Below the pieces are notes generated by a model. That model was not told where the DNA came from. It worked only from the letters and a program-made list of their open reading frames with translations, and did no database searches. 64,000 nucleotides of DNA from a virus, in the IMG/VR virus record IMGVR_UViG_3300031251_000003, positions 1 to 64,000 of that record; one strand, 5' to 3'. How positions within the stretch are numbered: the stretch's first letter is position 1; every line of letters begins with the position of its first letter. Shown piece by piece: positions 16,300 to 57,294 of the stretch. The translations under genes were made by a program, and so were the position numbers.

Positions 16300-16300
16300 G

Positions 16301-18000: not shown

Positions 18001-18015
18001 ATCTCGCAGGATTTG

Positions 18016-18024: not shown

Positions 18025-18030
18025 AGTACA

Positions 18031-18762: not shown

Positions 18763-18913
18763 AGGTTTATTCATAGGGGCAGCACTGGTCGGTGTATTAT
18801 CCGCTCTAATGGCACTAGCTCTTGGATTCAACGTCTGGTCTTGGCAGTGGTGGCTCATCTGGTTTGTTTCGACCGCGTTTTATGAACTTGGTTACTTCAT
18901 CGACAGGGACTAA
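18752..18913 (+). CDS. Small membrane protein, two transmembrane segments
   Basis: 53 residues from the ATG at 18752, with GGTGGAG eight bases upstream. Two hydrophobic helices: LFIGAALVGVLSALMALALG and WWLIWFVSTAFYELGYF. No charged pore motif. It could be an inner-membrane accessory protein such as a lysis or superinfection-exclusion factor; the sequence does not decide. Confidence 0.6.
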   Translation: MPFKGLFIGAALVGVLSALMALALGFNVWSWQWWLIWFVSTAFYELGYFIDRD

Positions 18914-19137
18914 TGCATTCCATAGAGTGGATCTCACGTCCTGCGTTTCCTTCTGGTAAAAGATCTTGGAAGCAAGATCTTAAAGATGATATCTATGTTG
19001 CGGGGTATAACGACGGTCGTAATGGAATTGATATGAGGCAGGATTATTACAAGTACCCTGTTATTCAAGCTATTTTTGAAATGGGATGGGAAGATGGTTG
19101 TGGTGATCTTGAGCTTTACAGAGATATCGATATGTGA
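18913..19137 (+). CDS. GYxxG / DGxGD family, member 4
   Basis: 74 residues, TAATG junction with the membrane protein. Half-motifs AGYNDGRNG and MGWEDGCGDLE. This is the member closest to the ribosome modulation factor pattern (GYxxGxxG ... GWxxxxxD), although the CPY residues of that family are absent. The 3' end contains the promoter of the next gene. Confidence 0.7.
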   Translation: MHSIEWISRPAFPSGKRSWKQDLKDDIYVAGYNDGRNGIDMRQDYYKYPVIQAIFEMGWEDGCGDLELYRDIDM

Positions 19138-19143
19138 TATAAT
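19115..19143 (+). promoter_or_regulatory. Sigma70-like promoter, leaderless spacing
   Basis: -35 TTTACA (19115-19120), 17-base spacer ending TGA (extended -10), -10 TATAAT (19138-19143), then six bases and GTG at 19150. One of the best promoters in the window, embedded in the end of member 4. Confidence 0.75.
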
Positions 19144-19149
19144 ACATCT

Positions 19150-23967: not shown

Positions 23968-24276
23968 ATGCGCTACAGCTTTGTGGAGTTGGAGTCTGGT
24001 GATCAAGAATATTTCGATGATGCCTACTCAGCATTTAGATTCGCCAAGGATCAAGAGCATAAGAAGAGAAACTCTGTATCATTGGTCGCTGTTGGGAAAG
24101 AGTATGACCCCGACACTATCGATGAATCTGAGTGGATTAACCTAGCAAGCGATATGACTGTCTATAGGGGTCAGATGCTTCGTCATATGATCCGCAGTTT
24201 AGACAACACAGTGGCTTGGCTAAGAACACAAATTGAAGAGCAGAGAAATGCAGCAGAAGAAGCAGGCGATTCATGA
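23968..24276 (+). CDS. Hypothetical alpha/beta protein
   Basis: 102 residues, AAGGGAG ribosome site. N-terminal beta-alpha unit (YFDDAYSAFRFAKDQE) resembling small phage proteins that read as a single-domain fold, then helices. Ends 28 bases inside the giant gene that follows, so the two are coupled. Confidence 0.6.
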   Translation: MRYSFVELESGDQEYFDDAYSAFRFAKDQEHKKRNSVSLVAVGKEYDPDTIDESEWINLASDMTVYRGQMLRHMIRSLDNTVAWLRTQIEEQRNAAEEAGDS

Positions 24277-27200
24277 AGATCTAATCAATCAGATACGAGA
24301 TAATCTCACTCCTGATTTACTAAAACCTGAGTTTCGTGACCAACCTTTCCCGGTTGGTCATTGCTATGTTAGCAGTGAAGCACTTTACCACCTACTTGGT
24401 GGCAGAGAGAGCGGCTTACGTCCAATGCGATTGCGTATGCCTGATGGTGTTGTACACTGGTGGTTGGAGACTCCCGAGGGTGAAGTAATCGATCCTACCC
24501 ATGATCAGTTCGGTGAGTCAGTCCCTTATGAGCAAGGTAAGAGCGGTGGCTTTCTAACAAGAGAGCCATCTCGTCGTGCTACGGAGCTAATGAATCGAAT
24601 TAGCTCTACTGAGTCTGATGAGCTAGCTCATAATCTCATGGACGAATTAGCCTGGGTTTCTAAAGAACGTGGTGGTCTAGATAAGTCTAACTTCTTGGGT
24701 GATGATTCTCCTGAAAGAGCAACTCCTTATGTAATTCTAAACAATCAAATGTATGTAGCTCCTAGACAATATCATTATGATCTTGCGGATTATTTAGAGA
24801 AGAAGAATGGATTTACTAGAGAACAATTGAGAGATGGCTATTGGGGATGGATTAGACCAAATGAAAATACATCTTTTGAACATTCAGATATGCTCAAGGA
24901 TAATAACTGGCATGATCCTGAGATGGTCAAGCGACTATACCCGAGTGCTATAGATATCACCAAGGCTCCGGTCGATGATGCTCCTTCCGATCCTCTAAAG
25001 GGATATGAGCAGCGTCGTAGCTCTTCCTGGAAGGAATCAGTGAATGCTCAAGGATGGATCTATGATCCGGCCACAGATAAGTTCATAACCGGTAACACAT
25101 GGCATGGTGGGCTATTAGAACAACTATTCGATAAGCCTTGGCCCTATATAGACAGAAGCGAACTAGACAAATTAGTTTATGGCTGGTTCGGACATCCGGC
25201 TAGTGGTAAAGACCCTGTAGCTATCTATTCCGATAACTTTGGATCCACTGCGACCGAAGAACAAAAACAGAGAGGATTGCAGCTAGCTAAAGAGTATTAC
25301 GAAGAAAATGCCGCTCAAAATATAGAATCTAAGGTAGCCTTCGAGACAGAACCAGATCCTCCCGATCCTGGTCATTACGTAGTGACATTCGTATACTATG
25401 CCGATGGTACACTGGAAACGGAAGTAGATCGTAGTCATGCTCACATGATCAATGAGTACATTGCACAACATGGATATGATCGTCGGGAGTTCATGTTGAA
25501 CATGATGCCCGTACTTGGATGGGTATTCTCCATAGACAACCAACTTTATGCCGTTTTCGCCTCTCAGGGATACAATGTCCAGAATAATACTCTTGAATCA
25601 GAGAGGGAAGAGACGCTAGTAGCATTGTCAAAGAGGTTCGATAAGCCTGTTCGTGAGACTGACTATCAAGAATGGATGGCTAACCAACAATGGGAAGCTA
25701 TTGTTGGTGAGTCTAGCGTTCAGAAGACGGCATTCGATCAGGCTTTCGTGTATGCTAACGATCATCTCTACGTGGCTAATAAGCCTCATCCAGCTATCAT
25801 GCGAGCTAACGGGATCGATCCAAGCACACCATTGGTAGCTGGTATCATTAAGGATACTCCAACTGGCGATGGCCCGCTCTGGATGACATTCTTCTCATGG
25901 TCACAGAACTTTGATGACCCTGAATTACAGGATCGTGCTCGTCAGGCTATAGAACATGAGTATGGTAAATTCCCCACAGAGGTAAGTTACGACGATATGG
26001 TGAAGATCGACAACGAGATCGGCCAACATCGTAATGAGATGCGTCCTCAGGCAGATAATCGTATGAATGAACGCTGGGATGACCATGAAAAAGCTTGTCC
26101 TTTCGTGTGGATGAATGGTATGGTATGGATTGGTGATGAGTTATCAGGTCATAATGGATTCGCTACAGATAGACCAGATATGTATGCCGAATGGTCAAGA
26201 CTAATGAATGAATCCGAACACACAACTTGGAGCAGGGATCAACGAGACGCTTTAATGTGGTTTGGTCGTGTCTTCCCCGATGGTGAGGTCGTAGCATGGA
26301 ATGACCAGCCGGTACCCGAAAACATACAGAATGATATTAGAAATGAAGCTCAGAAGCAAGGATTCGAGATGATGTCGGCAGCGCTTCCACACATCTATGT
26401 TGTGAATACGGGTGACAGCTACCATCAGTCTGGATTGCCCTTCATCTATGTGCCAGATAACGATGCAATTTACCTGGGCGAAACCATGGCTCCGCATATA
26501 GAGTTGATCAAGAACAATGAAGATCTCAATGGTTATGTGCGTCCTGAGGAATACACAACAGGCAACGGATACCTAGCCGGTCGAATAGATCGTAACGGTG
26601 ATGTATTGTTCTTCAACGTTCCTGGTTCGGTGTATAATCCTCAGACTGAACAGACAGTTTTGACTACACTCAAGAGTCAGTGGCCCGCGATTCAGGATCT
26701 AGATGGATTACAAGAAGAGGATGACGATCCGATCAATAACTGGCCCGGTTCTCATACATATCCAGTTCATAGTATCATCTCTAAGCTTGCTAATGAGGAA
26801 CCCGAGATCATTGTAGATCCAAGTGTGAATAATTCACATATCCCTGACTTCAATCAGATGGAAGTGATCTACATCTATGATCCGGGAACCAACAAGCTTG
26901 TCATTAGTCGTGGTCTTCATGCCGCCGCTATCCAGCAGTACTTTGGTGGGCCACGACCAGAGGATCGACAGTACGGCAACATGATAGCGGGTTACGGATC
27001 CTTGGATGCTGGTTGGGTATGTGTAACCGGCGATCTCTTGCGTAACGATTGGGTAACTGAACAGGTTGACAGAGTATTGGAGAACATAAGTTCTTCTGAT
27101 CATGTTGCCTCTGTACGGCTCATTGATATCCCTGTGACTGGACAGCAGTACGATTGGGCATGGAACAATGGTCAGCGTCCAATCCTATACCATGCACCAT

Positions 27201-30200
27201 CCGACACGCTCTACGTAGGGACACGCAATAGACACCATGGAGAGCTAATCCGTCAGATCTACAATCAAGGGCAGGCCGAGGCAGACGATTGGGATACGTT
27301 ACAGAATAACAAGGATTACCTTCTCGGCTCTGGATTGCCTTCGGGTGAAACCAAGTGGTTCACTATGAGAGATAGCGAACGCAATGCTCTGATCCCACAG
27401 GCTAACCAACAGTGGCAGGACTATTTCACTCACAGAACGGCAGAAGTTCAAGTACAAAACCCTGTGTCATACAATTACGTTCCTCTTACACCGAACGAAC
27501 TTACGGCTTTTGATTCATTGGACGAACGAAAACAAACGACATACTATCGACAGGCTCAAAGACTTAACGCTAGAGCAGAGAAAGCAGGAGTACCTGGCAA
27601 GATAAGGGGTAGAGATCTTGCGGCCCTTATGTATCGATACGATGGTCGTTGTGCTTATGATGGCACTCCTGGCGCAGATAGCTTTGATCATGTAATCCCA
27701 TTGAGCCGTGGCGGTTCTAATACAGTAGATAACCTCTTGCCTGCTCATACTCAGTGTAATGCCGAGCTAAACGATTGGGATCAGAAACTCACACCTATTC
27801 CTACAGCAATAACTCTGTCACCTGACTGGTTGAATGTACCCGCTGTAGCCAAGGTAGCTACTGTAGTTAAGGAACTGTTGTTCACTGACGATGATGTTGA
27901 CGAACGGGACGGGGACAGACATTGGGCTAAATGGTTCTACTACGCTCCAACCGATACATTGTACTGGTGGCCCACAACGAGTGAGAACGATGGTATGCCA
28001 AGTCATGCACAAGGTATTAAAGAGGCGTTCCCAGAGGAAGATTGGCTTGAGATGTGGGATTCAGGAGATCTTACCTTCGGTTACAAGACGCCAGATCAAT
28101 TATATGCATATGATTTCAATGATAGATACCCAGAGAAAGATATCCACGCTGCACAAATAGCATCAGAGTTCTTTGATATGCCCACTAATCTATCCCCAGA
28201 GAGATTCGCAAGCTCCAATAACATTCAGTTCGTTGATACCGAGGGTGGAATGTATCATGGAATGGGTTTCCCATTCCTTTACGATATTCGGGATGATATC
28301 CTCTACTTTGGTACCACTTCAACTTATCATGTACAATTGCTACAGGATATGCAAGCAAACGACCAAGATTATTACGATGATTACAAGGGGAATACTAAGC
28401 CATTGGTGGGTGGTCGCTACAATCCCGAAGAGAATCCACCAGACAGGATATATCTCTACAATTACCGCAATGATCCGATAGTATCTAATAGAATTCGTGA
28501 ATTGGTCAATGAGGCTATTCAGACTCCTGAATTTCAGCAAATCTATGAAAATGACTCCCATCATATGTCAGCTTGGAATCCTGGTGATACAGCTTGGGTA
28601 TACGATCCTGAGACAAAGCAGCTTCACTCTGGTCAATACCACGGAGAAATCATCCGTTCGATGAACCTACCGAGAGATTACAATTGGGATCAGTTTGTGT
28701 ATGGTTGGTATCCACGTACCGATGAAGAGTTTACTGACAGCTACATCGCACCTGAGTCTGTTGATCATCCTGATGAGCAGGAAGCACTCGTTGCTGCTCA
28801 AAGAGAATTCGCTAATAGAACAGCAAGGACGGCTGGTGTAGTGTATCTTGATGTACCGAGTACAGGCTTCGGTGGTATGAACCCAGAAGATACTTATCCC
28901 GCAATATATGATCCTGAGGTTGATACTTTGTATGTCGGTACTCTACCCGAGACTTCTCACGCCGAGTTGATCAGGAATAGTCCATTGGGTCACATGATGA
29001 ATGATAAGGGACACGGGTACAATATGGATCATCTAGGATTTGCATGGATCTATCCGACACAGGATCCACATGATCCTGGTTATGAGGCTGTATCATGGAC
29101 AGCAGCAATCCCGAGTAAACTATTACAAGAAGCCGTTAAAGGACTCAGAACAGGCAAGACATCTGAACGAAAGGAGGATGAAGCTCATGAACAACTACAG
29201 TTGGATACCAAGGTAGCTGAATCACAGTGGATTATGAGTGGATTCTACTGGCCCGATAACAATGCGGTTGATATATCGATGCCTGGTCAGGGTCATACTG
29301 GACTGATGGCAGAACAAGAATATACCTCCGAGTTTATGAGAAAGCAGAATTGGGTTCCGTTCCAGGTGTTCCACGATTCTCGTGACAAGTTTTACTATGT
29401 GGTCGTTGGTTCTGATTGGGTCAACGGTGGTAGTTATGATCTACCACCCGAGGGCGAAGAAGCTATCCGTGAACAGATACAGGTGAACACAGATGAACCT
29501 GTGTACTTCGAAGGAGATATGGTAACGAGCAAGGTAGCTTCTAGTGTCGAGTATGTTCATGTTCCTGAGGATCTACGTCGAGAGTGGGAACCAGATAGTA
29601 TCCGAGGAAATGCTCGTCCTTGGTTGTTAGTCAATGATACATACTATATAGGATCATTAGGAACTGGCCATGCTGAATTAGTTTATGCGGGTAATCTTCG
29701 AGATGAATCTATTGACTATAGTGACACCGGTGTTATTACAGACGCTTCTGAGCTTCTAGATATCTATGGTTATCGAAGCTATCCGATTCAAGGATCAAAG
29801 TTCTTCGTGATTCCTTTCAATGATGAAGCCCTAGCAGAAGAGTTAGCCCGACTTATGATTGACCACACAGATGAGATGATCAAGAGCACCAAGACCGCAT
29901 TACAAAATCATATTCCAAATCCCGGTTACACCGAATGGGATTCTCGTGCTGGTCGTTATGCTTGGGTTCTTCTATCTGATGGTCGAATCCTCTTTAGCAA
30001 GGAGGGTGGAAGTCATCAGTCTATTGCTGTTGATCATGAATTTGGTCGAGAATACGATTCATTTGGAAAGGGAACTACTTATGGTCAATTATTCGACAAG
30101 AATGGAGAAATTGAGGTTGAGATATTTACATTCACAGGCGGCGGGAGTAATCAGCCACCTGAAGAAATTAAGGAGAAAGTCAAAGCAGCATTCATGGATC

Positions 30201-33200
30201 ACAAGGACGACTCGTGGTATGGTAAAGTAGCTATGCCAGGTGGAGGCTATTGTTATCTCTGTTACAATGATCCAAAGATAAAGAATAAGCAAGGTATGCA
30301 TCCCGTCACTCATTGGGATTGGGTCATCGATGAACTTCACCCAGATCCTAAGCCGTCTCAGATCGGTCTATGTGATATGCATCACTGGATTCTACAGACC
30401 GAAGGTATCGATGGGTGGAAGCAGATCTTCCCTCTACGTAGACAGCCTGTTATGTCGAGCACTATCGTTGAGGTTCGCACATTAGGTAGTGCCGAGGAAG
30501 ATGTAGCTGATTCGCGGCCTATCATCTACGATCCAGAGACTGACACAATCTACATCGGCGGATATGGTGGCTATCATAGCGAACTAATGGATAGTGAAGA
30601 GATGGGCGGCAAGAACTGGCGAGGTATGGCCTTTGGTAGATTCTCTGGGTTTGATCATTTCAAGTGGTACATGAATCAGGATAGAATTCCTGATCTAGCT
30701 AACGTTGAGGAACAGATCCAGGCAGAGGCTCGTGTTCATTCTAATCTAGCGGAACAAATGGGATGGACGATTGAGGATTTAGGGCCAAGCGACCATAGCC
30801 ACGAATTACTACAATGGGATGTCGATCAAGACAGACTGGCTTGGGTCGCAGATCTAACTACCAAAACGATCTATATCGGTGAAGGTTGGATGCACCGGGA
30901 GATCTTCAAGCGAATGCTTAACATGAATATTGAACACGCCGGTGATATGAGTTTCAGCGGACTTGATGTGGATGATATCGCCGCTGGTTCCACAATGGAA
31001 GACGATCCTTCTAAGATGGAGTTCTATGAATGGGGAAAGAATTGGGATCAGTATGAACTCAATGAATTACGTGAGATCCTTCAAGATTACATAACTGATG
31101 ATCATATCAAGACAGCCGTGGAATTAGACAAGACTGAAGCTGGATGGCCCTCTGGATATGAGTGGTACACTAGCTGGTTGTATGTTCCCGATACTGGTCA
31201 GCTACTCATTAAGAACAAGCGTGATGTCAATCACACTATGTTGATTGTAGAAGAACCACAGTTAATGCAGGAGATTCGCGAAGGAGTGGAGATTGTACCT
31301 GGCTTGATTCTTAAAAACAATCATAATCAGTATGGGATACTATCGATGTACTCGGATAAATGGGATGGAAGTAATATCTTACATCCTGGGGCCAATGAGG
31401 AAGCAGTCAAGGCTGTTCAGGATTGGGCAGCAGCGAATACTCATTGGGGTGATTTACCTGTCGTAAACACCGAGGATTCACGCATTAGCTCATTCAATCA
31501 TATCAACTATGTCAATGTACCAGAATTCAATTACCACGGTGATGGAGTCCCCTGGATTCTATTGAATAATGGTGATATCTACATGGCTACCGAATCATGT
31601 TTTCACAGAGAATTGATTTGGGCAATAGACCCAGATGATAACTATAAAAATATAAGTTCAAATATAGCAGCGGCTGGTCGTGTAGAGAATGGGGTAGTGA
31701 AGACCTATTGGGGGCCGGATAGAGCCAATGTAAGTAATGAGGTATTACGTGCGCTCAAAGAAGGAGCATTGAATGAAGATGAACGAGGTAAGATAGCTAC
31801 AGTGGTAGATGACTTGAGTAGTCAATTCCCGGCGTCGGCATCAGAAGCTGAAGAACCATGGTCATACTGGAAGTATATTTATGACAATGATACAGATACC
31901 CTGCACGTATGGAAAACCAAGTATGAGGATGGTGATCCTATACATGCGGCAGCCTTCCGTGAGATCTTTGGCCCGGATACTTACAATCATAATTTCAGAA
32001 ATAGTGAAGCACGCTTTGCATGGGGGCATGGTTATGAAAATGGTTATGAGCTTTATGGTCATCACAGTACTCCCGATGTAAACGCTCATGCTGAAGCAGC
32101 CCTAGCTTACTTCATCAATAGTTTTCAGCAAGAGACTAGCAAGACGGCTGGTGAGTATACTCCCATGGTCAAGGGTATCCGTGGTCGATGGATCTTACTC
32201 CACGATGGAACTGTGTTGAGTGACGATGATCCAGGGACGATACACGCTCAGATTCTATTAGACAATGGAGCAACACCGGATCAGATAAAGGATATTGGAT
32301 TCGATGATGTCAGTCTGCGGAAGTACATTGATAACTATTACACATTCTATAACAATGTAAAGCAGGATCAAGAGCGCCAGCGTAATAGCTCAACTGATCA
32401 GTGGGACAACATCCAGCCTGTCGATGATTCTTGTTACCTCGTTGCTGCTGATCTCTCTCATGAGTACCCAGAATTGCATTATGAAGCTGGTCAATATGGT
32501 GATCAGGGCGAACATGCGTGGCTACGAATGGATGATGGAACAATCATTGATCCTACTCACGGTCAGTATGATGAGAGCAAGCCGATGAATATTGTCAAGC
32601 CCAATGATCCAGCCCAGAAACTGTATAAGTCGTGGGCTACTAATCCTAACATGACTACTGATTGGAATAATTACCCAGAAGAGTTTATGGATGATCCCGA
32701 TGATCCATTACACTGGTTATTTAGAGGAAAGCCAGGTCATCCTCATTCTGGCCCCGATGAGTTTGATGGAGCAATGGCTCCCAAGACGGCAGGCTGGGAA
32801 CAACAGCAGCTTAACCCCGACGCTCAGTATATATGGGTAAGAGGTAATAAAACCACAGTAGCGGCACCAACATGGTACTCTCATGGCTCATTGATCCAGT
32901 GGCTTCGAGATCATAATGAAGAACCATTATCCACGGGCAATATGTCATTGGGTAAGGACTTACCCGCTAATACTGTCGTGCTTCTATGGGAGGATGATGA
33001 GACAGGTGATAAATACTCAAAGGCAAGCTCAACTGTCACGGTACGAGATGATCCTCATCCCAAGAGCTTTATCTGGACATACGATGTGAACAAGGATCAT
33101 TTCACGGTAGGCAATCGTGACTGGTATCACACACGCTACTGGCCATCTACTGATGGTGGTGTAGTGTGCGGTGGTGTGAATCCCGATGGAGTGTGGAGCT

Positions 33201-36200
33201 ATGATGACTCCACCAATAAGACTACACCATCCGAAGCGAAAGCATTGATGCAGAATCTATTGGATCAAGGACTTCAAGAACAACTAACCAACAAAACGAG
33301 CGCTGTGGTTCCCAATCCTACAGAACCGTGGAATGATCCAGCATGGTTGAAGCAATGGCAGGATAGAGAGGACGAAGGAGGATTCTATGGTGATCATCGT
33401 GAGATCGCTAATCCTTATATCCCGTTCTTGGTCATGGAAGATGGCAGAACCTGGATAGGCTGGGACTATGCTTCACATGCATATGAATGGATGGTCGATG
33501 AAGCAGAAGAAGAGTTGAATATTGATTACAATGCAATGAAGGATTCACAAGGATCTATCAACTTCGCGGATCAAGAGTATGAAGTTCACTGGCCCAATCA
33601 TGGATTGCATAGAGAGCTAGAACAACAGATCGTAACCGAGATAGTCAATGATGTAGAGGATGAACGCAAGCGGGCATTCGAACGGGGTAGATTGGATGAC
33701 AAGACAGCATGGGTAAAGACGGCGACACGAGTGGACGTATCTAATCCCGAGGATCTAACACAATGGCGCTGTGGTTTATGGGTATACGATGAGAAACAGG
33801 ATCACTTGGTCTTGGCCCCGTATTTCTCACACTATCCGTTTCATGCCAAGCTGATCCGAGACTACATGTGGGACTTCGAACCCAATGATCGAGACTATGA
33901 GGCTCTAGTAGCTGGACAATGGTGGCTCAGAAACAACGACTTGGTTGTGGCCGAAATATACCCGGATGATAATGAAATTGAAGGGCCAATGAAAGATATG
34001 ATCGAGGGCTACATTAGTGAACATCTACAGACAGAGACAACGGCTGGATTGAATGGTGATCTACCCGACAACCTGCGGAACATTCCTTTAACAGAGAACG
34101 AAGGATGGTGGGGAACATACATCACCGATGTACCCGTGAGTACCGATAGACTGAGTAGAGATGTACTAACGACTTCCCCCACTCCACTCTCCAGACGTGA
34201 TGAGCAACTGACTCACAGGAATTCGGCATATATAAACACACATGAAAGTCAAGGCTTGACATACACTTCAAGTTATGCATCGGATCCAACAACCCCGCAT
34301 GAATACACAAGTAATATAACATCTGCCCTAGGGCTAGACACCATGCGGCACACTAACACCCCTATAGGCAAGTACCCCCACCAAGGTTGCCCCTCTAGGG
34401 TACCCCCGTGGCATAAAAGAGAGTACCTTTCCGCAAATGGAGAGGTTCCAGAGGTCGAGGACACAGGGGCAAGAACCGCAAGTGATACCCCTTGGTGGGT
34501 AGTGGCAGAGCCAGGGGAGGAACCGAACCAAATAGCATGGGTGGCGGATCTGAACACAAGAACGGTCTATGTAGGCGAATGGCATGGAGAGATCTTCAAG
34601 TCCCTCATGGGCCTCAACTACGATCACACAACGGATGAACAAGCGGAAGAAACACCCAATCTTGCCACGGGAAGAAGCTGGACACAGTTCTACGGAACCG
34701 AAATGAGCAGGGAACAAATAAAAGAGATGCTTCAAGCCATCCACGATTACTACGAACAAAGAGCCTACCATTTTTCTACAGATATTTTCCCCAGGGTTGA
34801 GGACATCCAGGCTTCCCCTAACAGCAAGTTAACGGCTCTATTCGAGGATATCAACGGTACGACGGCCTTTGCATGGAGTCCCGAACAACTCATTCAGGGC
34901 CACAATCATCGTTTCATTATCATGAAGATCCGAGATCAGGGGCTGGATCCCAATGACTTCACCTACGGATGGAAGAATGGAGATCACTTCTATATCCATT
35001 CATGGGATCATCAGGACTTCCAGGCCGAACATCAGATACTTGAGTGCAAGAAGGCTTTAGAGGCGATGGGACTCCACGATGAGGATGGGCCTTCCTTCCA
35101 GGACACTGGTAAGGTCACCGGTACACTTGAGCAACAGATTCACCCAGGTTGGGGAGGACAATCGCTTATCTATTTCCGGGGAAAACAGTATAGCGCCCCG
35201 ACTCATGCCCAGAATTTCAGAAAGCTTATTGGCGATGGAGCCTCATCGGAAGAGATCCTCCATGAAGGTATCCCCGGTGCCCGTTACTTGGATCCAGGTG
35301 CACAGAGACGTATAGGGAAAGTGGCGGCAATAAACGAAATTCCAGTAGAAACAGCGGGGATGCATCCATGGGGAGATGAACCCTTTATCTACTATGCACC
35401 GACCAATACTGTGTATGTTGCAACAAAATCGGGAAGGCATGGAGACATCATGCGCTGGATACAGGATCACGACCCGGAAACGTTCGCCCTGATTACCGAT
35501 AGGAGCACGGGATTGGACGCTTTCAAGAATATCTTCTATGGAGAATTCGTTCCTTTACATGAATGGAGGGGAGAAGTGGAGTCCGGGGAGATAGATTACT
35601 TCACCGCGAGCGGTTCAAGGTTGACATCCGATGAGGTACCGGAGGAACTCAAGCAATGGGCCGAAGCCCGTTGGGGCAATGTCACATCCAAAGTAATAGA
35701 GTCTCATCCGAGTCTCCATATCGTGGACGTAGATAACTACAGTAGTAGGATTGAAGGGCTTGAGCGTCCTGTATTACAACGGGAAGGCGATTCTAATCTC
35801 TATGTTGGACTGTATGGTGGAGGGCATTGGGATCTAGCTAGTGTCGCTGGTATTCCTTTTGATAATATTTTAACACAAGGATGGATCGATGAAAGTGGAG
35901 AGTTTAACGCTTATTCGATAACCACAGAGGCTTACGATACACTGGAAAATGCAGGATATAACCCAGTCAGTAAAAATTGGGAAAGAACAATCGAAGATAA
36001 AGTAGAGTCTCATTTATCGGGTATCCAACTCACCCAACCCAATGAACCAAGGGATATTGATAATCCCGGTGTTAGGTGGATAAAGACCCAGGATGGAACC
36101 TACTACACCGATGAAGAGGAACCGGTCATGACTCATGCCCATCTAGTTCACCGCTACAAGATTCCCTTGGATAAGATAGTCGATGTAGGCGTGGACGATG

Positions 36201-38386
36201 ATAGCCTCTGGAAATACTATAGCGGTTGGTATCAGAACCATCTACCCACAGACTTTATAGAGTCTCATAAAACAGCTACTCAACTAATACCCATTGATTT
36301 GGACGATTCATCTTGGCATTCCGAACCCGCTTGGATCTATGATCCTAATAAGGATCTTCTTTACGTTTCTACCGGAGCCAGTCACCACGCAAGACTTTTC
36401 CATAGTATCCTTGGAGATGACTACGGAGACACAGATGCGATGAAGACCGGTTGGATCGATCTGGATAACAACTATGTAGCCTTTGTTGACGAGGATGAAG
36501 AATCGGCATTCGCGAACAATATCACGGCCATATTCTCTCGTTATTACGATAGGGAAATGAAGCCCATTGATGGAAATACTTGGATGGCCAAGTATGGATC
36601 AATAGAGTCTCATAAACAGGGTGCCAACATAGGGGAACCTGACCCGAACAATCAAGGGAAGTTCATGGAAGGCAGTCAGCCATTTATTTACTACAATGGC
36701 GATTTCTATTGGGGTAAGGGCGCTGAACACCATCCCGATATTCTACGAACTAACATGCTTTATGGTAAGACTCCATTATTAGCTGGTTGGGTTAACTTTC
36801 GCAAGAAAGAAATCGGTCTATGGTCGGGGAACGTTACACAGGATCGTACCATCGAAGATGAGGTAGCCCGACAACTACAAGAGCAGTTCCCGGATTTCGC
36901 TATAGATAAAGGCTTTCGTTTAGGGGCGGTAACCTCTTGGAAGATCGAGGTTCTCCCCGAATCGACTGGACGGAGAATAGATGACAGAGTAGCCTGGGTA
37001 GCAGATCAGGATTCTCATACAATCTATATCGGGGATGGTTGGTTCCATGGAGATATCTTCAAGCAGATTGGAGAATTAAATGTTGATCATGCCGGAGATT
37101 TACATTGGAGACAAGACAAAACATCAGCATTATTGGCAGGAAGTATCTGGAAGAATAACATCTTACTCTACGGAAAATCGGGTGAATGGAACCCGTCTGA
37201 TGAGGCAGAAGTCTACGACACTATAAAGGACTGGTATCGGGAAGAAAGGAGCGAAGATGTGTCCACCCATCAGCTTCCAAATGTCCACGCAATGTACCAA
37301 CAAAGTCGAGTGATGGATATCGATGATCCGATCAACGGTAGACCACAAGAAAAGCCCTTCAGTTTCATCTACTACAACGGCGATGTATTCGTTGGATACC
37401 TCCACACTCACCCGATGCTTGTCTCCGATATGGCGGGTATGGGAATTAAGATATTAGATAAAGCCAACACAGCGGCGGGTTGGGTAGATACAGCTAATCG
37501 AGTAGGTATGTTCTACTCCTTTGAACAGCAATGGCTAAATCGTAGTAGTGAAGAAATCCAGCAGATTCAAGCCAACGAAGAAGATGCCAAGAGGCAGTTG
37601 GAGTCATGGGTACCGGGATTGGAATGGGTAAACCCCAATGATTATCTCAGACGAACCACAGCAACAGAGTGGAACTACCAGAGTGCTTTCTGGTATAGCC
37701 CTAGAACGGGACTACTCACAGGTAAAGCTGCCCACTGGCAGCTAATCGGGGATGCTCTAGCTAATCTCCCCTACGAAGAACGAGAAACTATAATGCAGCA
37801 TTCTTACTTGGGTTGGATCTTCGAGTCCGAGGGAGGCAAAGAGAAGGTAGCCGTTCCTGCATCAGTGGAACACAACCTTGACCCTACTCTTGAAGAAGAG
37901 GCTAGAGAGGCTTTGAAACAAGAGGGAATCACCCTAGGTGATCCACAACCGGGGATGTTCCAGTTCGATAGCGAAGATTATCCCGCTGAAGACTATCATC
38001 TTGGACGTTTAGCAACTGAAGTAGTCGATATTCCCGAAGTTGAAGAGGAAGACTATCAAGAAAGAACCCGTAGGAAGCCTTTTGTCTACAGTCCGAGGGA
38101 AGATAAGCTCTATATTGGCCCTTATGGGAGTCATCATGTGGAATTAATCTGGAAAGCATTCGGAATGAATGATGATCCTTCGACCCCTGGTTTCGACGCC
38201 AGAGAGGAAATAGCGATGAATATCGAGGACGATCCGGGCAATCTTGGGGTTATTTTGGTAGATCAGGTCACAAATGCACCATATTTAGTACATTGTTTCG
38301 GTGATCCGAGCGATAAATGCCTCGAAGCCTTGCGTTCTACCTTCCCCGGTGTTAGAATAGAAGACGAGAACTGTGAGGTTATCTAA
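24248..38386 (+). CDS. Giant modular protein (~4,700 residues) with ~37 copies of a novel module, HNH nuclease and peptidase-like domains
   Basis: 4712 residues from the ATG at 24248; a TTG at 24233 is an alternative start. N-terminal domain (residues about 30-110) has GHCYVSSEALYHLLGG, VHWWLE and IDPTHDQF, a Cys/His/Asp arrangement like a papain/transglutaminase-type peptidase (Cys39); a shorter second copy has Cys2729. An HNH nuclease lies at about residues 1080-1180 (C1135, D1147-H1148, N1162, H1167). A cysteine-rich zinc domain is near residue 2000. The rest is about 37 repeats of a ~100-residue unit centred on a strand-turn-strand-helix: hydrophobic Y, DTLYIG, 3-8 residues, H-x-E-L-I. 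K-T-A or K-V-A linkers separate many units. Located between accessory and capsid genes; a packaged, injected polyvalent protein is my best inference. Function unknown. Confidence 0.85.
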   Translation: MQQKKQAIHEDLINQIRDNLTPDLLKPEFRDQPFPVGHCYVSSEALYHLLGGRESGLRPMRLRMPDGVVHWWLETPEGEVIDPTHDQFGESVPYEQGKSGGFLTREPSRRATELMNRISSTESDELAHNLMDELAWVSKERGGLDKSNFLGDDSPERATPYVILNNQMYVAPRQYHYDLADYLEKKNGFTREQLRDGYWGWIRPNENTSFEHSDMLKDNNWHDPEMVKRLYPSAIDITKAPVDDAPSDPLKGYEQRRSSSWKESVNAQGWIYDPATDKFITGNTWHGGLLEQLFDKPWPYIDRSELDKLVYGWFGHPASGKDPVAIYSDNFGSTATEEQKQRGLQLAKEYYEENAAQNIESKVAFETEPDPPDPGHYVVTFVYYADGTLETEVDRSHAHMINEYIAQHGYDRREFMLNMMPVLGWVFSIDNQLYAVFASQGYNVQNNTLESEREETLVALSKRFDKPVRETDYQEWMANQQWEAIVGESSVQKTAFDQAFVYANDHLYVANKPHPAIMRANGIDPSTPLVAGIIKDTPTGDGPLWMTFFSWSQNFDDPELQDRARQAIEHEYGKFPTEVSYDDMVKIDNEIGQHRNEMRPQADNRMNERWDDHEKACPFVWMNGMVWIGDELSGHNGFATDRPDMYAEWSRLMNESEHTTWSRDQRDALMWFGRVFPDGEVVAWNDQPVPENIQNDIRNEAQKQGFEMMSAALPHIYVVNTGDSYHQSGLPFIYVPDNDAIYLGETMAPHIELIKNNEDLNGYVRPEEYTTGNGYLAGRIDRNGDVLFFNVPGSVYNPQTEQTVLTTLKSQWPAIQDLDGLQEEDDDPINNWPGSHTYPVHSIISKLANEEPEIIVDPSVNNSHIPDFNQMEVIYIYDPGTNKLVISRGLHAAAIQQYFGGPRPEDRQYGNMIAGYGSLDAGWVCVTGDLLRNDWVTEQVDRVLENISSSDHVASVRLIDIPVTGQQYDWAWNNGQRPILYHAPSDTLYVGTRNRHHGELIRQIYNQGQAEADDWDTLQNNKDYLLGSGLPSGETKWFTMRDSERNALIPQANQQWQDYFTHRTAEVQVQNPVSYNYVPLTPNELTAFDSLDERKQTTYYRQAQRLNARAEKAGVPGKIRGRDLAALMYRYDGRCAYDGTPGADSFDHVIPLSRGGSNTVDNLLPAHTQCNAELNDWDQKLTPIPTAITLSPDWLNVPAVAKVATVVKELLFTDDDVDERDGDRHWAKWFYYAPTDTLYWWPTTSENDGMPSHAQGIKEAFPEEDWLEMWDSGDLTFGYKTPDQLYAYDFNDRYPEKDIHAAQIASEFFDMPTNLSPERFASSNNIQFVDTEGGMYHGMGFPFLYDIRDDILYFGTTSTYHVQLLQDMQANDQDYYDDYKGNTKPLVGGRYNPEENPPDRIYLYNYRNDPIVSNRIRELVNEAIQTPEFQQIYENDSHHMSAWNPGDTAWVYDPETKQLHSGQYHGEIIRSMNLPRDYNWDQFVYGWYPRTDEEFTDSYIAPESVDHPDEQEALVAAQREFANRTARTAGVVYLDVPSTGFGGMNPEDTYPAIYDPEVDTLYVGTLPETSHAELIRNSPLGHMMNDKGHGYNMDHLGFAWIYPTQDPHDPGYEAVSWTAAIPSKLLQEAVKGLRTGKTSERKEDEAHEQLQLDTKVAESQWIMSGFYWPDNNAVDISMPGQGHTGLMAEQEYTSEFMRKQNWVPFQVFHDSRDKFYYVVVGSDWVNGGSYDLPPEGEEAIREQIQVNTDEPVYFEGDMVTSKVASSVEYVHVPEDLRREWEPDSIRGNARPWLLVNDTYYIGSLGTGHAELVYAGNLRDESIDYSDTGVITDASELLDIYGYRSYPIQGSKFFVIPFNDEALAEELARLMIDHTDEMIKSTKTALQNHIPNPGYTEWDSRAGRYAWVLLSDGRILFSKEGGSHQSIAVDHEFGREYDSFGKGTTYGQLFDKNGEIEVEIFTFTGGGSNQPPEEIKEKVKAAFMDHKDDSWYGKVAMPGGGYCYLCYNDPKIKNKQGMHPVTHWDWVIDELHPDPKPSQIGLCDMHHWILQTEGIDGWKQIFPLRRQPVMSSTIVEVRTLGSAEEDVADSRPIIYDPETDTIYIGGYGGYHSELMDSEEMGGKNWRGMAFGRFSGFDHFKWYMNQDRIPDLANVEEQIQAEARVHSNLAEQMGWTIEDLGPSDHSHELLQWDVDQDRLAWVADLTTKTIYIGEGWMHREIFKRMLNMNIEHAGDMSFSGLDVDDIAAGSTMEDDPSKMEFYEWGKNWDQYELNELREILQDYITDDHIKTAVELDKTEAGWPSGYEWYTSWLYVPDTGQLLIKNKRDVNHTMLIVEEPQLMQEIREGVEIVPGLILKNNHNQYGILSMYSDKWDGSNILHPGANEEAVKAVQDWAAANTHWGDLPVVNTEDSRISSFNHINYVNVPEFNYHGDGVPWILLNNGDIYMATESCFHRELIWAIDPDDNYKNISSNIAAAGRVENGVVKTYWGPDRANVSNEVLRALKEGALNEDERGKIATVVDDLSSQFPASASEAEEPWSYWKYIYDNDTDTLHVWKTKYEDGDPIHAAAFREIFGPDTYNHNFRNSEARFAWGHGYENGYELYGHHSTPDVNAHAEAALAYFINSFQQETSKTAGEYTPMVKGIRGRWILLHDGTVLSDDDPGTIHAQILLDNGATPDQIKDIGFDDVSLRKYIDNYYTFYNNVKQDQERQRNSSTDQWDNIQPVDDSCYLVAADLSHEYPELHYEAGQYGDQGEHAWLRMDDGTIIDPTHGQYDESKPMNIVKPNDPAQKLYKSWATNPNMTTDWNNYPEEFMDDPDDPLHWLFRGKPGHPHSGPDEFDGAMAPKTAGWEQQQLNPDAQYIWVRGNKTTVAAPTWYSHGSLIQWLRDHNEEPLSTGNMSLGKDLPANTVVLLWEDDETGDKYSKASSTVTVRDDPHPKSFIWTYDVNKDHFTVGNRDWYHTRYWPSTDGGVVCGGVNPDGVWSYDDSTNKTTPSEAKALMQNLLDQGLQEQLTNKTSAVVPNPTEPWNDPAWLKQWQDREDEGGFYGDHREIANPYIPFLVMEDGRTWIGWDYASHAYEWMVDEAEEELNIDYNAMKDSQGSINFADQEYEVHWPNHGLHRELEQQIVTEIVNDVEDERKRAFERGRLDDKTAWVKTATRVDVSNPEDLTQWRCGLWVYDEKQDHLVLAPYFSHYPFHAKLIRDYMWDFEPNDRDYEALVAGQWWLRNNDLVVAEIYPDDNEIEGPMKDMIEGYISEHLQTETTAGLNGDLPDNLRNIPLTENEGWWGTYITDVPVSTDRLSRDVLTTSPTPLSRRDEQLTHRNSAYINTHESQGLTYTSSYASDPTTPHEYTSNITSALGLDTMRHTNTPIGKYPHQGCPSRVPPWHKREYLSANGEVPEVEDTGARTASDTPWWVVAEPGEEPNQIAWVADLNTRTVYVGEWHGEIFKSLMGLNYDHTTDEQAEETPNLATGRSWTQFYGTEMSREQIKEMLQAIHDYYEQRAYHFSTDIFPRVEDIQASPNSKLTALFEDINGTTAFAWSPEQLIQGHNHRFIIMKIRDQGLDPNDFTYGWKNGDHFYIHSWDHQDFQAEHQILECKKALEAMGLHDEDGPSFQDTGKVTGTLEQQIHPGWGGQSLIYFRGKQYSAPTHAQNFRKLIGDGASSEEILHEGIPGARYLDPGAQRRIGKVAAINEIPVETAGMHPWGDEPFIYYAPTNTVYVATKSGRHGDIMRWIQDHDPETFALITDRSTGLDAFKNIFYGEFVPLHEWRGEVESGEIDYFTASGSRLTSDEVPEELKQWAEARWGNVTSKVIESHPSLHIVDVDNYSSRIEGLERPVLQREGDSNLYVGLYGGGHWDLASVAGIPFDNILTQGWIDESGEFNAYSITTEAYDTLENAGYNPVSKNWERTIEDKVESHLSGIQLTQPNEPRDIDNPGVRWIKTQDGTYYTDEEEPVMTHAHLVHRYKIPLDKIVDVGVDDDSLWKYYSGWYQNHLPTDFIESHKTATQLIPIDLDDSSWHSEPAWIYDPNKDLLYVSTGASHHARLFHSILGDDYGDTDAMKTGWIDLDNNYVAFVDEDEESAFANNITAIFSRYYDREMKPIDGNTWMAKYGSIESHKQGANIGEPDPNNQGKFMEGSQPFIYYNGDFYWGKGAEHHPDILRTNMLYGKTPLLAGWVNFRKKEIGLWSGNVTQDRTIEDEVARQLQEQFPDFAIDKGFRLGAVTSWKIEVLPESTGRRIDDRVAWVADQDSHTIYIGDGWFHGDIFKQIGELNVDHAGDLHWRQDKTSALLAGSIWKNNILLYGKSGEWNPSDEAEVYDTIKDWYREERSEDVSTHQLPNVHAMYQQSRVMDIDDPINGRPQEKPFSFIYYNGDVFVGYLHTHPMLVSDMAGMGIKILDKANTAAGWVDTANRVGMFYSFEQQWLNRSSEEIQQIQANEEDAKRQLESWVPGLEWVNPNDYLRRTTATEWNYQSAFWYSPRTGLLTGKAAHWQLIGDALANLPYEERETIMQHSYLGWIFESEGGKEKVAVPASVEHNLDPTLEEEAREALKQEGITLGDPQPGMFQFDSEDYPAEDYHLGRLATEVVDIPEVEEEDYQERTRRKPFVYSPREDKLYIGPYGSHHVELIWKAFGMNDDPSTPGFDAREEIAMNIEDDPGNLGVILVDQVTNAPYLVHCFGDPSDKCLEALRSTFPGVRIEDENCEVI
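24721..38170 (+). repeat. Protein-level module array of the giant gene (about 37 units)
   Basis: Approximate core starts: 24721, 25058, 25372, 25738, 26098, 26434, 26866, 27178, 27929, 28268, 28590, 28898, 29237, 29615, 29960, 30517, 30838, 31171, 31547, 31872, 32189, 32826, 33064, 33420, 33773, 34530, 34862, 35161, 35380, 35767, 36073, 36328, 36680, 36988, 37358, 37682 and 38075. Spacing is mostly 300-380 bases. Units are too diverged at DNA level for recent slippage. Most similar pair: 30838, 34530 and 36988, which share VAWVAD, then T-I/V-Y-I/V-G, then H-x-E/D-I-F-K. Confidence 0.8.
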
Positions 38387-40233
38387 TGTTGACGACACGT
38401 AGGCCAGTAATCCCACCTAAAGGCGGTGTAGCTTATTGCTACCTCGATGGGAACATTTACTATGAGACAGAAGGATCTCATATGGAACTCGTACGACAGA
38501 TGCTTGACCAGGGGATTCCTAGATCAGCACTCGATGCATACGATCCGGGGTACAGCGCCATCTTTGGTTATATCTGGAATACAAGTGATACAGAAGAACC
38601 AAAATATGTAAATGATCAATACTCTGATATCTACTCTAACACGAAGGATCCACAGAAGACAGCGGAACTGAATTCTAAGTTACGTGCTTTATTTCCAGAC
38701 ATCACAACAGACACCAGTGGCCCTTACTTCGAGCCAGTAAAATGGACATTGAGCCACATTTCTGATACAATAGATCCAATGTCCGATATGACACCTATTG
38801 AGACGGCTATCCAAGGAGAACCTGCGGCTTCCATGGCTATTCGTGCGCTGAATCAAGCAGGCGGACGGGTATTTGTCGTTGGTGGTGCAGTTCGCGATGC
38901 CATCCTGGGTCACGCACCCAAGGACGTAGATCTCATGGTTCAAGGTCTGGATGGCGATGCTATCGAGAATGCGCTTAAGGGTCTGGGTAGACTGGACTTT
39001 ACGGGCAAGCAGTTCGGTGTGTATCGCTTCAAGAGTGGAACCTCTGAGGTAGAGATTGCTCTGCCCAGGACTGAGGTTTCTACTGGCCCTGGCCACCAGG
39101 ATTTTCAGGTTACCACAGATCCTAACTTGGATCCCGAGCAGGATCTGGCCAGGAGAGATTTCACCGGTAACGCTATGGCATATGAGCCTGCAACCGGTCA
39201 ACTCATCGACCCTTACGGCGGTGCAGAGGATCTTAAGAATGGTACTTTGTCACTTGTAAATGACAAGGCATTCGAGGATGACCCTCTCCGTGTCGTTCGT
39301 GCATTGGTTGCTAATGCGCGGTTCGGCCTTGAGCCGGATGAGCAGCTTAAGCAATCACTGGCCGATAACGCTCAGAAGATCAAGCATCTTCCGGGTGAGA
39401 GAATTCAGGCAGAGCTTGATAAGCTCCTGTCTGCCCCTGACCCTGCTAAGACGATCAGCCTTGCGGAGCAGAGTGGTCTGATCCCGTATCTGTTCCCTGA
39501 GCTAGAGGCGGCTGTTGGATTCGATCAGCACAATCCTCACCACGATATGAACGTCTTCGATCACACTTTGTCGGTGCTGAAGAAGATGTCTACACTTAGC
39601 AACGATCCTGATATGAGACTCGCTGCGCTGTTCCACGACTCCGGTAAGCCCGAGTCGTACTGGAATGACGAAAATCACGGTGGCAACGGTGGTGGCCACT
39701 TCTACAAGAAGGTACTCCACGACGGAACTGTCATTGGTGCCGACCACGAGGATGTGGGCGCACGTAACGTTCGGGCATTCATGACGAGGATGCGTTACCC
39801 TAAGGATCGTATCGACCGTGTAGAGAAGCTGATCAAGTTCCATATGTGGAACTACTTCAACTCCGAGAAGGGAGCGAGGAAGTTCCTCCGTGCTCTGGAC
39901 GGCGATACCAAGATGGCCTTTGATCTTCTGGCTATCCGCGAAGCCGATTCAAGTGGTAAAAGAGACGGAGAGCCGAACAACTACGATAGAGAGATGATCG
40001 ACAAGGATCGTCAACTACTCCAAGATGTAATTGCTGGTCATGATGCCGGTGAACAGCACGCATTCACGATTAAAGATCTGGCCGTCAATGGTCACGATCT
40101 GATCTCTCTTGGTCTAAAAGGCCCGGAAATTGGTAAAACTCTGAACTATCTGCTCGATCTGGTCATTGATCATCCTGCTCTGAATGAGAAGGAAACACTC
40201 ATGAAAGTAGTCGATGAGGGTGTCCGGGTATAA
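38386..40233 (+). CDS. CCA-adding-type tRNA nucleotidyltransferase with HD domain, fused to one novel module
   Basis: 615 residues, TAATG overlap with the giant gene. Residues about 10-135 are one more copy of the repeated module (YLDGNIYYETEGSHMEL). Then a complete class II nucleotidyltransferase: GGAVRD at 166-171, catalytic D180 and D182 in KDVDL, RRDFTGNA from 256, PLRVVRA near 300 and GERIQAEL at 337-344. An HD phosphohydrolase domain follows (H417-D418 in ALFHDSGKP). The enzyme adds or repairs the 3' CCA of tRNA using CTP and ATP; the HD domain may remove 2',3'-cyclic phosphates. Repair of tRNAs cut by host defences is a plausible purpose. GC is higher over the enzyme part. Confidence 0.9.
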   Translation: MLTTRRPVIPPKGGVAYCYLDGNIYYETEGSHMELVRQMLDQGIPRSALDAYDPGYSAIFGYIWNTSDTEEPKYVNDQYSDIYSNTKDPQKTAELNSKLRALFPDITTDTSGPYFEPVKWTLSHISDTIDPMSDMTPIETAIQGEPAASMAIRALNQAGGRVFVVGGAVRDAILGHAPKDVDLMVQGLDGDAIENALKGLGRLDFTGKQFGVYRFKSGTSEVEIALPRTEVSTGPGHQDFQVTTDPNLDPEQDLARRDFTGNAMAYEPATGQLIDPYGGAEDLKNGTLSLVNDKAFEDDPLRVVRALVANARFGLEPDEQLKQSLADNAQKIKHLPGERIQAELDKLLSAPDPAKTISLAEQSGLIPYLFPELEAAVGFDQHNPHHDMNVFDHTLSVLKKMSTLSNDPDMRLAALFHDSGKPESYWNDENHGGNGGGHFYKKVLHDGTVIGADHEDVGARNVRAFMTRMRYPKDRIDRVEKLIKFHMWNYFNSEKGARKFLRALDGDTKMAFDLLAIREADSSGKRDGEPNNYDREMIDKDRQLLQDVIAGHDAGEQHAFTIKDLAVNGHDLISLGLKGPEIGKTLNYLLDLVIDHPALNEKETLMKVVDEGVRV

Positions 40234-43372: not shown

Positions 43373-43398
43373 GATGCAGTTCCGCATGGTAATATGTG

Positions 43399-45546
43399 AT
43401 GAATTCAGTAAAGAGCAACGTCTTTGATCCCATCCAACCTAACTTAGATCAAGTTATATTTAATGGCACGGATCTTAGGCCAAGTGTAAACAAATTTGTC
43501 CAAAAGATCTACTATCATGCCCTGAATCGTAAGCTTGGTGTGACGGGTAGGGATTGGGCACACCTGTATCTCACTGGCAGCCTAACAACTTACCAGTATT
43601 CGGCTACTTCTGATGCCGACCATAGTGTTTTCCCTGACTATGACAGAATTTGGAAGCATCTCAATATAGATCCGCATGATGCTCGTGTCATGTTGGTAGA
43701 GATGTCTATCGATTACCTAGATGGTATCTTCATTCCCGGAACCCTTCATCCTATCCAGTTCTTTGTCGAGAGTCCAGGGGTTGTACCGACTGATAAGTTT
43801 CGCCCAGGACTCAGATCTGCATATGATCTTTTGGATCGAGAGTGGTTTGTAAAACCAGAAAAGGAACGAGCACACAGCGTACAGGATGAATGGCCGGATG
43901 TCTATGAACGAGCTTCAGAGATAGCCGACAAGATGACTACTATGCTTGATTCTGGTAACTACGATGCGGCTCAGAACCTGTGGATTACAGTACACAAGAA
44001 GCGACAATTGGATCAGCAGGCCGATCTAGGAGATTTCTCTGAAGGCAACATCACCCTCAAGCTACTCTTGAATCGTGGCCTTATTGATCGTCTCAGAAAT
44101 GAAGTTGGATTGAAAATCCAGACTAAGGTAGGAACTCTCTATAATCCTTTGGATTCAAATAGGTTTAAGGCGGTGTTTGCCTTTGGTTATGATCCTGAGT
44201 CTGATACATTAGTGGCTGACAGAACTCATTACAGTGTCGTAAAAGAACTTATAGGGAAACTTGGTGCTCCCAAAGAAGATACTCGTGGTTTTGCAATGAG
44301 GATAAAACCCGTGCTAGGCTGGGTCTATCAGGACTACAATACAGGAGATCATGCACCAGATTGGAAAGTTGAGTTTGCCTCAGATCTCTATGACCAACAG
44401 GCTGGCTGGTCTGAAGCAAGGAATCAGCAGGCTCTAGAAGCCCTCCAACGAGAGAACCCTAACGCTAACATCACGTATGCGGGCCAGAGCGATTACAAGA
44501 ACCCAGATGATACCTATGAGTATCACGAAGCTACTCTCCACACAAGTATGCCGCCGTGTTGGCAGGCACCACAGTTCTTCGAGGATTATCAGAAGAGCTA
44601 TACACCTGAAGTAGGGGAAACTACAGAGGTTAGAGGCTATGATTGGGAAGTTGATTATGCCCGACTCTTCAAGCTTATTCACATGAAGACCTGGCCGCTA
44701 AAGAACATCGACGTAAGATTACTAACCCCGGAACACAAGGACTGGAACCAAATTTATGGGTATTACGAAAACGGCAAGATCTGGATCCATCCGTTCCTAA
44801 CTGCTGCTGAGGCTAGTGAAACTCTCTGGCACGAGATCCAGCATCAGTATCAGGATCAAGAAAAACGAAGACAATACTACAACTACAACGTCCCAAGGCG
44901 TAATTTCGATTATGATGTATCTGAGGAAGAACATGATCCTAGTCAATATGAAGAGCATCCCGACGAGATAGACGCAAATATGTTTGCTCAATTCATGAAT
45001 ATGGGAGAGCAAGCTTCTACGTTCTTGGTTGTGCCTATGCCGCCCAAGTACGATCCAACCTGGGTTCCCAGAGAACTACACCTGGATCGAGGCGAGTGGG
45101 ATGAACAGAACGAACTCTATGCCTTAACCCCGGAACAACTCAAGTCCGAAGAAGACGCACAGGTAAAGCTCTTCCGTACCGACTACAGTTTTTGGCAAGA
45201 GACTTGGGTTTCCGAAGAGAACTTTAGATGGAGTATCGTTGCTGCATTACCAGAGCTTTGGGAAGATCGAGTAACGACCAAGGTTATCTGGGATTGGGAC
45301 AAGGATCGTATCATCCTTGGGACAATGGCTTCATTGCCACAACTGCCTAACTCCAAGATAGTAGGAGAATACCATGACGGCAGGGTCACCTTGTTTGAAG
45401 CCGAGAAGCAATGGATCTCTCCTGTGTATTTCCGACGGCTCTGGCATAGTTCTTATCCTGATAAGGAACTGAAGGATGTTTACTTCCGTCGAGGTACGGG
45501 AGATGAGTATAAGTTGAGAAGTCTACCAAGGAAGCGAAATGTCTAA
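43399..45546 (+). CDS. Nucleotidyltransferase-like and HExxH metallopeptidase protein carrying the novel module
   Basis: 715 residues from the ATG at 43399 (GTG at 43396 possible; no clear ribosome site). Residues about 55-80 have LTGSLTTYQYSATSDADHS, the GS...SDxD signature of minimal nucleotidyltransferases, followed by a helical region. Around residues 250-350 is one repeat module (GYDPESDTLVADRTHYSVV). Near 478 is a zinc metallopeptidase helix H-E-I-Q-H with a downstream acidic helix (PDEIDANMF, about residue 520) that could give the third ligand, as in peptidases of polyvalent phage proteins. Near 625 a strand pair IWDWDKDRIILG again resembles the module core. The target is unknown. Confidence 0.75.
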   Translation: MNSVKSNVFDPIQPNLDQVIFNGTDLRPSVNKFVQKIYYHALNRKLGVTGRDWAHLYLTGSLTTYQYSATSDADHSVFPDYDRIWKHLNIDPHDARVMLVEMSIDYLDGIFIPGTLHPIQFFVESPGVVPTDKFRPGLRSAYDLLDREWFVKPEKERAHSVQDEWPDVYERASEIADKMTTMLDSGNYDAAQNLWITVHKKRQLDQQADLGDFSEGNITLKLLLNRGLIDRLRNEVGLKIQTKVGTLYNPLDSNRFKAVFAFGYDPESDTLVADRTHYSVVKELIGKLGAPKEDTRGFAMRIKPVLGWVYQDYNTGDHAPDWKVEFASDLYDQQAGWSEARNQQALEALQRENPNANITYAGQSDYKNPDDTYEYHEATLHTSMPPCWQAPQFFEDYQKSYTPEVGETTEVRGYDWEVDYARLFKLIHMKTWPLKNIDVRLLTPEHKDWNQIYGYYENGKIWIHPFLTAAEASETLWHEIQHQYQDQEKRRQYYNYNVPRRNFDYDVSEEEHDPSQYEEHPDEIDANMFAQFMNMGEQASTFLVVPMPPKYDPTWVPRELHLDRGEWDEQNELYALTPEQLKSEEDAQVKLFRTDYSFWQETWVSEENFRWSIVAALPELWEDRVTTKVIWDWDKDRIILGTMASLPQLPNSKIVGEYHDGRVTLFEAEKQWISPVYFRRLWHSSYPDKELKDVYFRRGTGDEYKLRSLPRKRNV

Positions 45547-57018: not shown

Positions 57019-57294
57019 ATGGAAGCTCTGGAAGCCAGAGAGATTGCTATTAGAGAATTGAACAGTTTGAGGGGAAGACTCTGCACGGTCATTGAATCGG
57101 CAGGGCTTCCCCAAAAACAAGAGAGAGCGATAGTTACATTGATCAAAAATGCTAGCTACCAGTCTCAAGCAGTGATTAGCGAGCTATTAGAAAAGCTCGA
57201 CAGTGGAGATATCAAATTCACTTACACAGAAAAATTGGATGGCCCATTAAATGATAACGAAATACGCGAACCTCGAACGTATATTAGAAGTTAG
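57019..57294 (+). CDS. Small helical head-region protein
   Basis: 91 residues, helical (AREIAIRELNSLRGRLC, ERAIVTLIKNASYQSQAVISEL). It overlaps the protease gene by 44 bases, so the two are probably co-translated. Unknown function. Confidence 0.55.
   Translation: MEALEAREIAIRELNSLRGRLCTVIESAGLPQKQERAIVTLIKNASYQSQAVISELLEKLDSGDIKFTYTEKLDGPLNDNEIREPRTYIRS

Follow-up and report, generated by a model that had tools for sequence, protein, structure and literature searches.

What is the role of a phage protein of 4,712 amino acids that is built around many copies of one domain? The gene that raises this question lies in a 64,000-nucleotide stretch (the window) of a 158,106-base virus record, and the original prediction had read it as an array of about 37 copies of an unfamiliar module, expanded long ago and serving as a binding array or a polyprotein.

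Organization of the giant gene and its surroundings

The single long reading frame that had been claimed is open throughout, with an in-frame TTG at 24233 (Table 1). The protein has a mass of 540 kDa, a pI of 4.6, a net charge of -396 and no transmembrane segments. We placed 37 unit starts in it, with a spacing of typically 102-126 residues where no other domain intervenes, and no tandem repetition at the DNA level was found within the gene.

The major capsid protein (MCP) of the source phage shares ~50% identity with its counterparts in Gordonia phage Skog and in Mycobacterium phages, Myrna and Phabba among them. Genes in the record are ordered as TerL and portal (144-151 kb), ThyX (0.5 kb), the giant, a SWIM protein, a protease fusion and MCP, placing the giant between the portal on one side and the prohead protease and MCP on the other. 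Myrna and Skog show the same head-cluster order without the giant, and a virus record carrying a head cluster in this order bears out the phage origin that had been assumed for the DNA. Further units lie downstream of the giant gene; the 716-aa gene that contains one of them is weakly similar to a metallo-protease family of phages (phrog_87, 0.0083) and includes the residues HEIQH.

Table 1. Coordinates of the giant gene, its parts and related features in the window
Feature	Position	Strand	Remarks
Giant ORF	24248..38386	+	ATG start; 4,712 codons open
N-terminal YunG-like domain	24287..24622	+	residues 14-125; PHROG 12251, 2.4e-26
Units 1-8	24710..27487	+	24710-25030, 25031-25357, 25358-25687, 25721-26050, 26078-26407, 26420-26749, 26846-27157, 27158-27487
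20 [KR][TV]A tripeptides	25331..37852	+	residues 362, 493, 1063, 1202, 1524, 1527, 1655, 1762, 1882, 1993, 2288, 2632, 2846, 3152, 3157, 3409, 3691, 4008, 4247, 4533
HNH endonuclease domain	27530..27832	+	residues ~1095-1195; PF01844 3.7e-6; several PHROG HNH families
Units 9-15	27908..30268	+	27908-28237, 28250-28570, 28571-28876, 28877-29206, 29219-29548 (unit 13, weak), 29597-29926, 29939-30268
Cys/His-rich insert	30233..30457	+	CYLC...CDMHH, read from sequence
Units 16-21	30494..32494	+	30494-30814, 30815-31144, 31151-31480, 31529-31846, 31847-32164, 32165-32494 (unit 21, weak)
Second YunG-like segment (HAWLRMDDGTIIDPTHGQYDESKP)	32348..32803	+	BLASTP 1e-6 to N-terminal domain; PF24585 0.051
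Units 22-25	32804..34081	+	32804-33043, 33044-33373, 33404-33733 (unit 24, fails leave-one-out), 33752-34081
Ser/Thr/Pro-rich spacer	34028..34480	+	codon usage atypical
Units 26-37	34514..38371	+	34514-34843, 34847-35140, 35141-35359 (unsupported), 35360-35689, 35750-36055, 36056-36307, 36308-36637, 36659-36967, 36968-37297, 37337-37663, 37664-37993, 38057-38371
Next gene	38386..40233	+	start overlaps giant stop (TAATG); unit 38413-38715 plus tRNA nucleotidyltransferase
Single unit	44176..44460	+	E=5e-5; inside 716-aa gene 43396-45546
Partial unit	51905..52042	+	C terminus of PEP-utilizers mobile-domain protein 49856-52096; protein E=8e-4
Head maturation protease domain plus long tail	57251..59539	+	phrog_18299 5.8e-19; candidate processing enzyme
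MCP	60171..61139	+	used for placing the phage

Homology, fold and turnover of the repeated unit

Each unit was scored against a profile built from the other units, which could be done for 36 units. All but one (35/36) outscored every one of 10 shuffles, and E<0.01 was reached by 29 of the 36. The exception was the unit at residue 3057, and the units at residues 1662, 2644, 2937, 3538, 3839 and 3941 were weak; for two of these, 2937 and 3941, the giant of a related phage contains partners. The short unit at residue 3636 was unsupported. The relative, IMGVR_UViG_3300045996_004585, is a single partial contig of 81,563 bases whose MCP is 87% identical to that of the source phage, and its giant counterpart has 3,514 codons and ~22 units. 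A profile made from the relative alone detected 17 domains at E<=0.01 in the giant studied here and gave no match to a reversed and three shuffled versions of it, while the converse test detected 15 domains in the relative. Thus, the array of ~37 modules that had been proposed consists of a repeated domain validated by profiles, but it is not a pure array: other elements interrupt it, namely two YunG-like segments, an HNH domain, a Ser/Thr-rich spacer and a Cys/His-rich stretch.

When the units of both phages were pooled, the histidine that had been said to be kept in nearly all units was present in 58/58 aligned units, although it served as an anchor in unit placement, so that in the weakest units its invariance follows in part from the way they were placed. 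A later glycine was present in 54 of the 58. Mean column identity among units was 13-18%, the only polar residue constant across them was the histidine, and the units were acidic, with a mean net charge of -7.

The domains that interrupt or precede the array were considered individually. The N-terminal domain matched PF24585 (YunG) at 1.5e-5, slightly below the gathering score, and has a Cys...His...Asp pattern (GHCY / HWWL / DPTHDQ); domains of the PHROG 12251 type also occur free-standing in Caulobacter phiCbK-like phages. This family is related to the end domain of the giant and not to the repeated unit. Unit 21, as nominally delimited, runs into the second YunG-like segment. Matches to PADLOC, as well as to NCBIfam, were confined to the HNH domain. 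The Cys/His-rich insert, judged by its residues, is a possible zinc site, and had no match in Pfam. A Ser/Thr-rich spacer comparable to that of the giant is present in the relative (residues ~2190-2370), with codon usage that is likewise atypical. An intron or other RNA in the spacer was considered and rejected, since there was no Rfam match and the annotated frame scored best. In the relative's giant, residues ~1090-1410 contain, by eye, an HELGH stretch and a stretch that looks like an ADP-ribosyltransferase, neither of which was found with Pfam.

AlphaFold models were obtained for one unit of this giant (pLDDT 77, pTM 0.70) and one unit of the relative (pLDDT 86, pTM 0.80). Both models have the order strand-strand-strand-helix-strand-strand-helix, with the histidine at the beginning of the first helix, and are not fully independent, since the two input alignments have sequences in common. 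The predicted elements, occurring in one order in both units, are in agreement with one compact fold, which by the original prediction would support the module. Foldseek searches with both models against the PDB, and with the first model (from this giant) against BFVD, returned nothing at E<=0.001. Structure matches to photosystem PsaD and a cofilin-type protein had TM values below 0.4 and were not meaningful. Sequence and profile searches of Pfam, PHROGs, NCBIfam and the PDB gave no consistent match to the unit; the best matches of single members had E values of at least 0.001 and differed between members, and the best PDB profile match had E=0.2. The absence of a named family, as anticipated, therefore held in Pfam, PHROGs, NCBIfam, PDB sequences and Foldseek, with no credible match in any of them, and the repeated domain is new in that none of the libraries searched names it.

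Comparison of the two giants gave no support to an old and stably kept expansion, as the relative, in spite of its 87% MCP identity, differs in both the number and the order of units. The N-terminal domains are 72% identical in their aligned part and the HNH regions ~51%, whereas the best-matching units are only 26-43% identical. Most neighbouring genes are ~45-62% identical between the two phages, so that the units diverge faster than the bulk of their surroundings. We found only 8 reciprocal best unit pairs, whose order was not kept, most units of the relative having no one-to-one partner, and together with the difference in unit number and order this suggests that the array turns over quickly.

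The unit profile found no match in 45 other records (42 MCP relatives, many of them partial, with Myrna and Skog included), and its positive controls, the source record and the relative, gave 34 and 18 matches, respectively. It also found none in a set of 396 genomes from a single bacterial phylum, with no positive control inside that set. Myrna, Skog and eight siblings whose MCPs are ~55% identical yielded no counterpart of the giant. A tblastn search of 50,697 phage records with the unit consensus gave one match, judged to be due to chance; three viral contigs picked up with the consensus encode unrelated proteins, and matches to a Paraburkholderia plasmid gave nothing by unit profile. The unit is thus known so far from two phages.

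A tripeptide motif in the linkers

The tripeptide [KR][TV]A occurs 20 times in the giant, against 2.7 expected (~7-fold), a count reached in 0/500 shuffles, which keep no control of local linker composition. Sixteen of the 20 lie within 27 residues before a unit, in stretches that together account for 21% of the residues (p=3e-8). Other stretches of the giant are free of the motif, and up to five units would stay in one piece there.

The motif is also enriched in Skog gp150 (9 vs 1.2 expected) and gp158 (9 vs 2.1), encoded at 5730-8618 and 16119-19367, and in Myrna gp97 (9 vs 2.0; encoded at 15743-19378) and gp96 (5 vs 1.2). No enrichment was seen in the MCP, portal, sheath or tape measure of Skog and Myrna; RNA ligase and RecA of Skog, together with a few further proteins, passed as well, with small counts. 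In the relative, the protease fusion (6 vs 1.2), 66352 (5 vs 1.0) and 57239 (3 vs 0.6) were enriched, and its own giant more weakly so (9 vs 3.1). The eight more distant siblings gave a mixed picture, with enrichment in some head proteins only, and we therefore regard [KR][TV]A as a candidate prohead-protease site rather than an established one. The polyprotein reading of the original prediction is supported in tendency only, because tripeptides resembling protease sites fall in the linkers.

The proteins most comparable in position are Myrna gp87, gp96 and gp97 and Skog gp150, gp157 and gp158, which belong to the same gene cluster as the giant and several of which carry [KR][TV]A linkers. Myrna gp97 and Skog gp158 have a protease domain in common with gene 57251, and Myrna gp96 and Skog gp157 a SWIM region in common with 46633. 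In contrast to the giant, these large proteins contain no unit domain that the profile could detect, and they are three to five times shorter. The recurrence of a linker motif that is common to other head proteins is a feature of prohead-protease substrates which the giant displays. Head proteins of T4 and SPN3US/phiKZ likewise contain recurring short motifs (PMC10052503, PMC5694885), and in SPN3US the prohead protease cuts long head-protein propeptides several times (PMC10052503) and many internal proteins are ejected (PMC10052503, PMC5694885). The giant differs from these substrates in its motif, and its cleavage is predicted from sequence; moreover, cleavage in T4 and SPN3US/phiKZ removes propeptides, whereas that of the giant would free dozens of homologous domains.

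Possible roles of the giant protein

In the literature, the giant comes closest to the polyvalent proteins that phages and conjugative elements encode. It has been proposed that these very long chains of disparate domains are injected along with the DNA and that peptidases often process them (Iyer et al., 2017; PMC5512222). Like these, the giant is phage-encoded and unites several kinds of domain (unit, YunG-like and HNH) within one polypeptide. It departs from polyvalent proteins, which have 2-15 differing domains (PMC5512222), in repeating one new domain ~37 times alongside few enzymes. In addition, the peptidases embedded in polyvalent proteins are mostly zincins, whereas the giant embeds only YunG-like Cys segments and has a prohead protease encoded downstream.

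The position among head genes and the reshuffling between close relatives lead us to the view that the giant is probably not an ordinary structural protein but a kit of several effector parts that is packaged. Our leading, though tentative, interpretation is that of a polyvalent-type head polyprotein, cut in its linkers, whose pieces are delivered to the host; packaging, cutting and delivery are steps that we infer. The chain would be made late and enter the prohead, where the head maturation protease encoded downstream might cut at [KR][TV]A within the linkers and so release pieces that mostly comprise one to three units. These pieces would then enter the host along with the DNA, and the many acidic unit variants with their constant histidine could bind or modify factors of the host or of defence systems. 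Points counted in favour were the place in the head cluster, the domain validated across two phages with one predicted fold, the motif enrichment, the fusions of units to enzymes, the reshuffled array and the published concept of polyvalent proteins; those counted against were the mixed motif enrichment, the runs of units free of the motif, the histidine being the sole constant polar residue, and that no fold match points to a function. A polyprotein strategy in the strict sense, in which a packaged 540-kDa precursor is cut by the capsid protease into ~20 pieces, delivering dozens of variants of the new histidine-containing domain as a fast-changing library of effectors against defence or host targets, appears doubtful.

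Acidic, variable units with a constant histidine suggest a common binding or catalytic site for different partners, and our preferred guess is that the unit is a ligand-binding or counter-defence domain. The giant may possibly be a binding array, and the fast change between close relatives would fit a role in an arms race.

The protein could also be a polyvalent-type internal protein that works unprocessed as one intact chain, a scaffold or sponge in the host or the head. We consider this possible but rather unlikely: the single uninterrupted reading frame, the uniform domain, the acidic and soluble character without a membrane segment, and several neighbouring units with no [KR][TV]A between them are in line with it, but the motif lies in linkers far above chance and is common to other head proteins of the family, and a folded protein of 540 kDa would presumably pass a tail with difficulty if it were neither unfolded nor cut.

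It is improbable that the giant is a structural part of the virion, be it a head decoration, a fibre or an internal scaffold core, in which the repeats serve as mechanical blocks. Although the head-cluster position and the long repeated architecture would suit such a part, a constant histidine amid otherwise ~15%-identical units is unusual for a building block, enzyme-like domains lie within the chain, copy number and order vary in a close relative, and siblings with ~55% MCP identity, as well as Myrna and Skog, have no counterpart. A protein that acts inside the producing cell, for example in late inhibition of defence, and is never packaged would account for the fusions of units to tRNA nucleotidyltransferase and other enzymes and for the fast turnover; the placement in the head cluster and the motif common to head proteins make this, too, an unlikely explanation. 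Only its length would recommend the giant as a tape measure, a match that the original prediction had named as one that would refute it, or as another of the known long proteins of the tail; this reading is hardly credible, since a separate 767-aa Gln/Ala-rich candidate (weak Skog match, E=0.011) stands at the expected tail position, and the giant is strand-rich, Trp/Tyr-rich and placed with head genes rather than a helical chain among tail genes after those for tail tube and chaperone.

As for the proposed head polyprotein, the phage would, should the array be packaged, deliver a library of many effectors whose make-up changes fast from one relative to another. A domain present ~37-fold with a constant histidine, in kin of well-studied mycobacteriophages, should be easily expressed, and its ligand can be sought. 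The linker motif common to Skog and Myrna head proteins predicts a prohead-protease specificity that is testable in those laboratory-grown phages.

Several other genes of the window were noted. A 1,118-aa protein (9370-12726), possibly a fibre or solenoid, repeats a motif of ~20 residues, similar to TISATSTVSGKVxxLRRI, dozens of times; its repeats are partly visible at the DNA level, and it had no PHROG match. A papain-family cysteine protease is encoded at 3164-4087 (PF00112, 6.2e-8; PHROG peptidase, 4.8e-32), with KTA near its N terminus. At 13137-16299, an ATPase (PHROG 1297) is followed by a 506-aa protein, resembling a MoxR/vWA pair; PHROG 1314 labels the latter an HNH endonuclease, possibly a misnomer. 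Finally, an HNH-like reading frame on the minus strand (61419-61829) adjoins the MCP gene and may be mobile, as its best match lies elsewhere in the contig of the relative.
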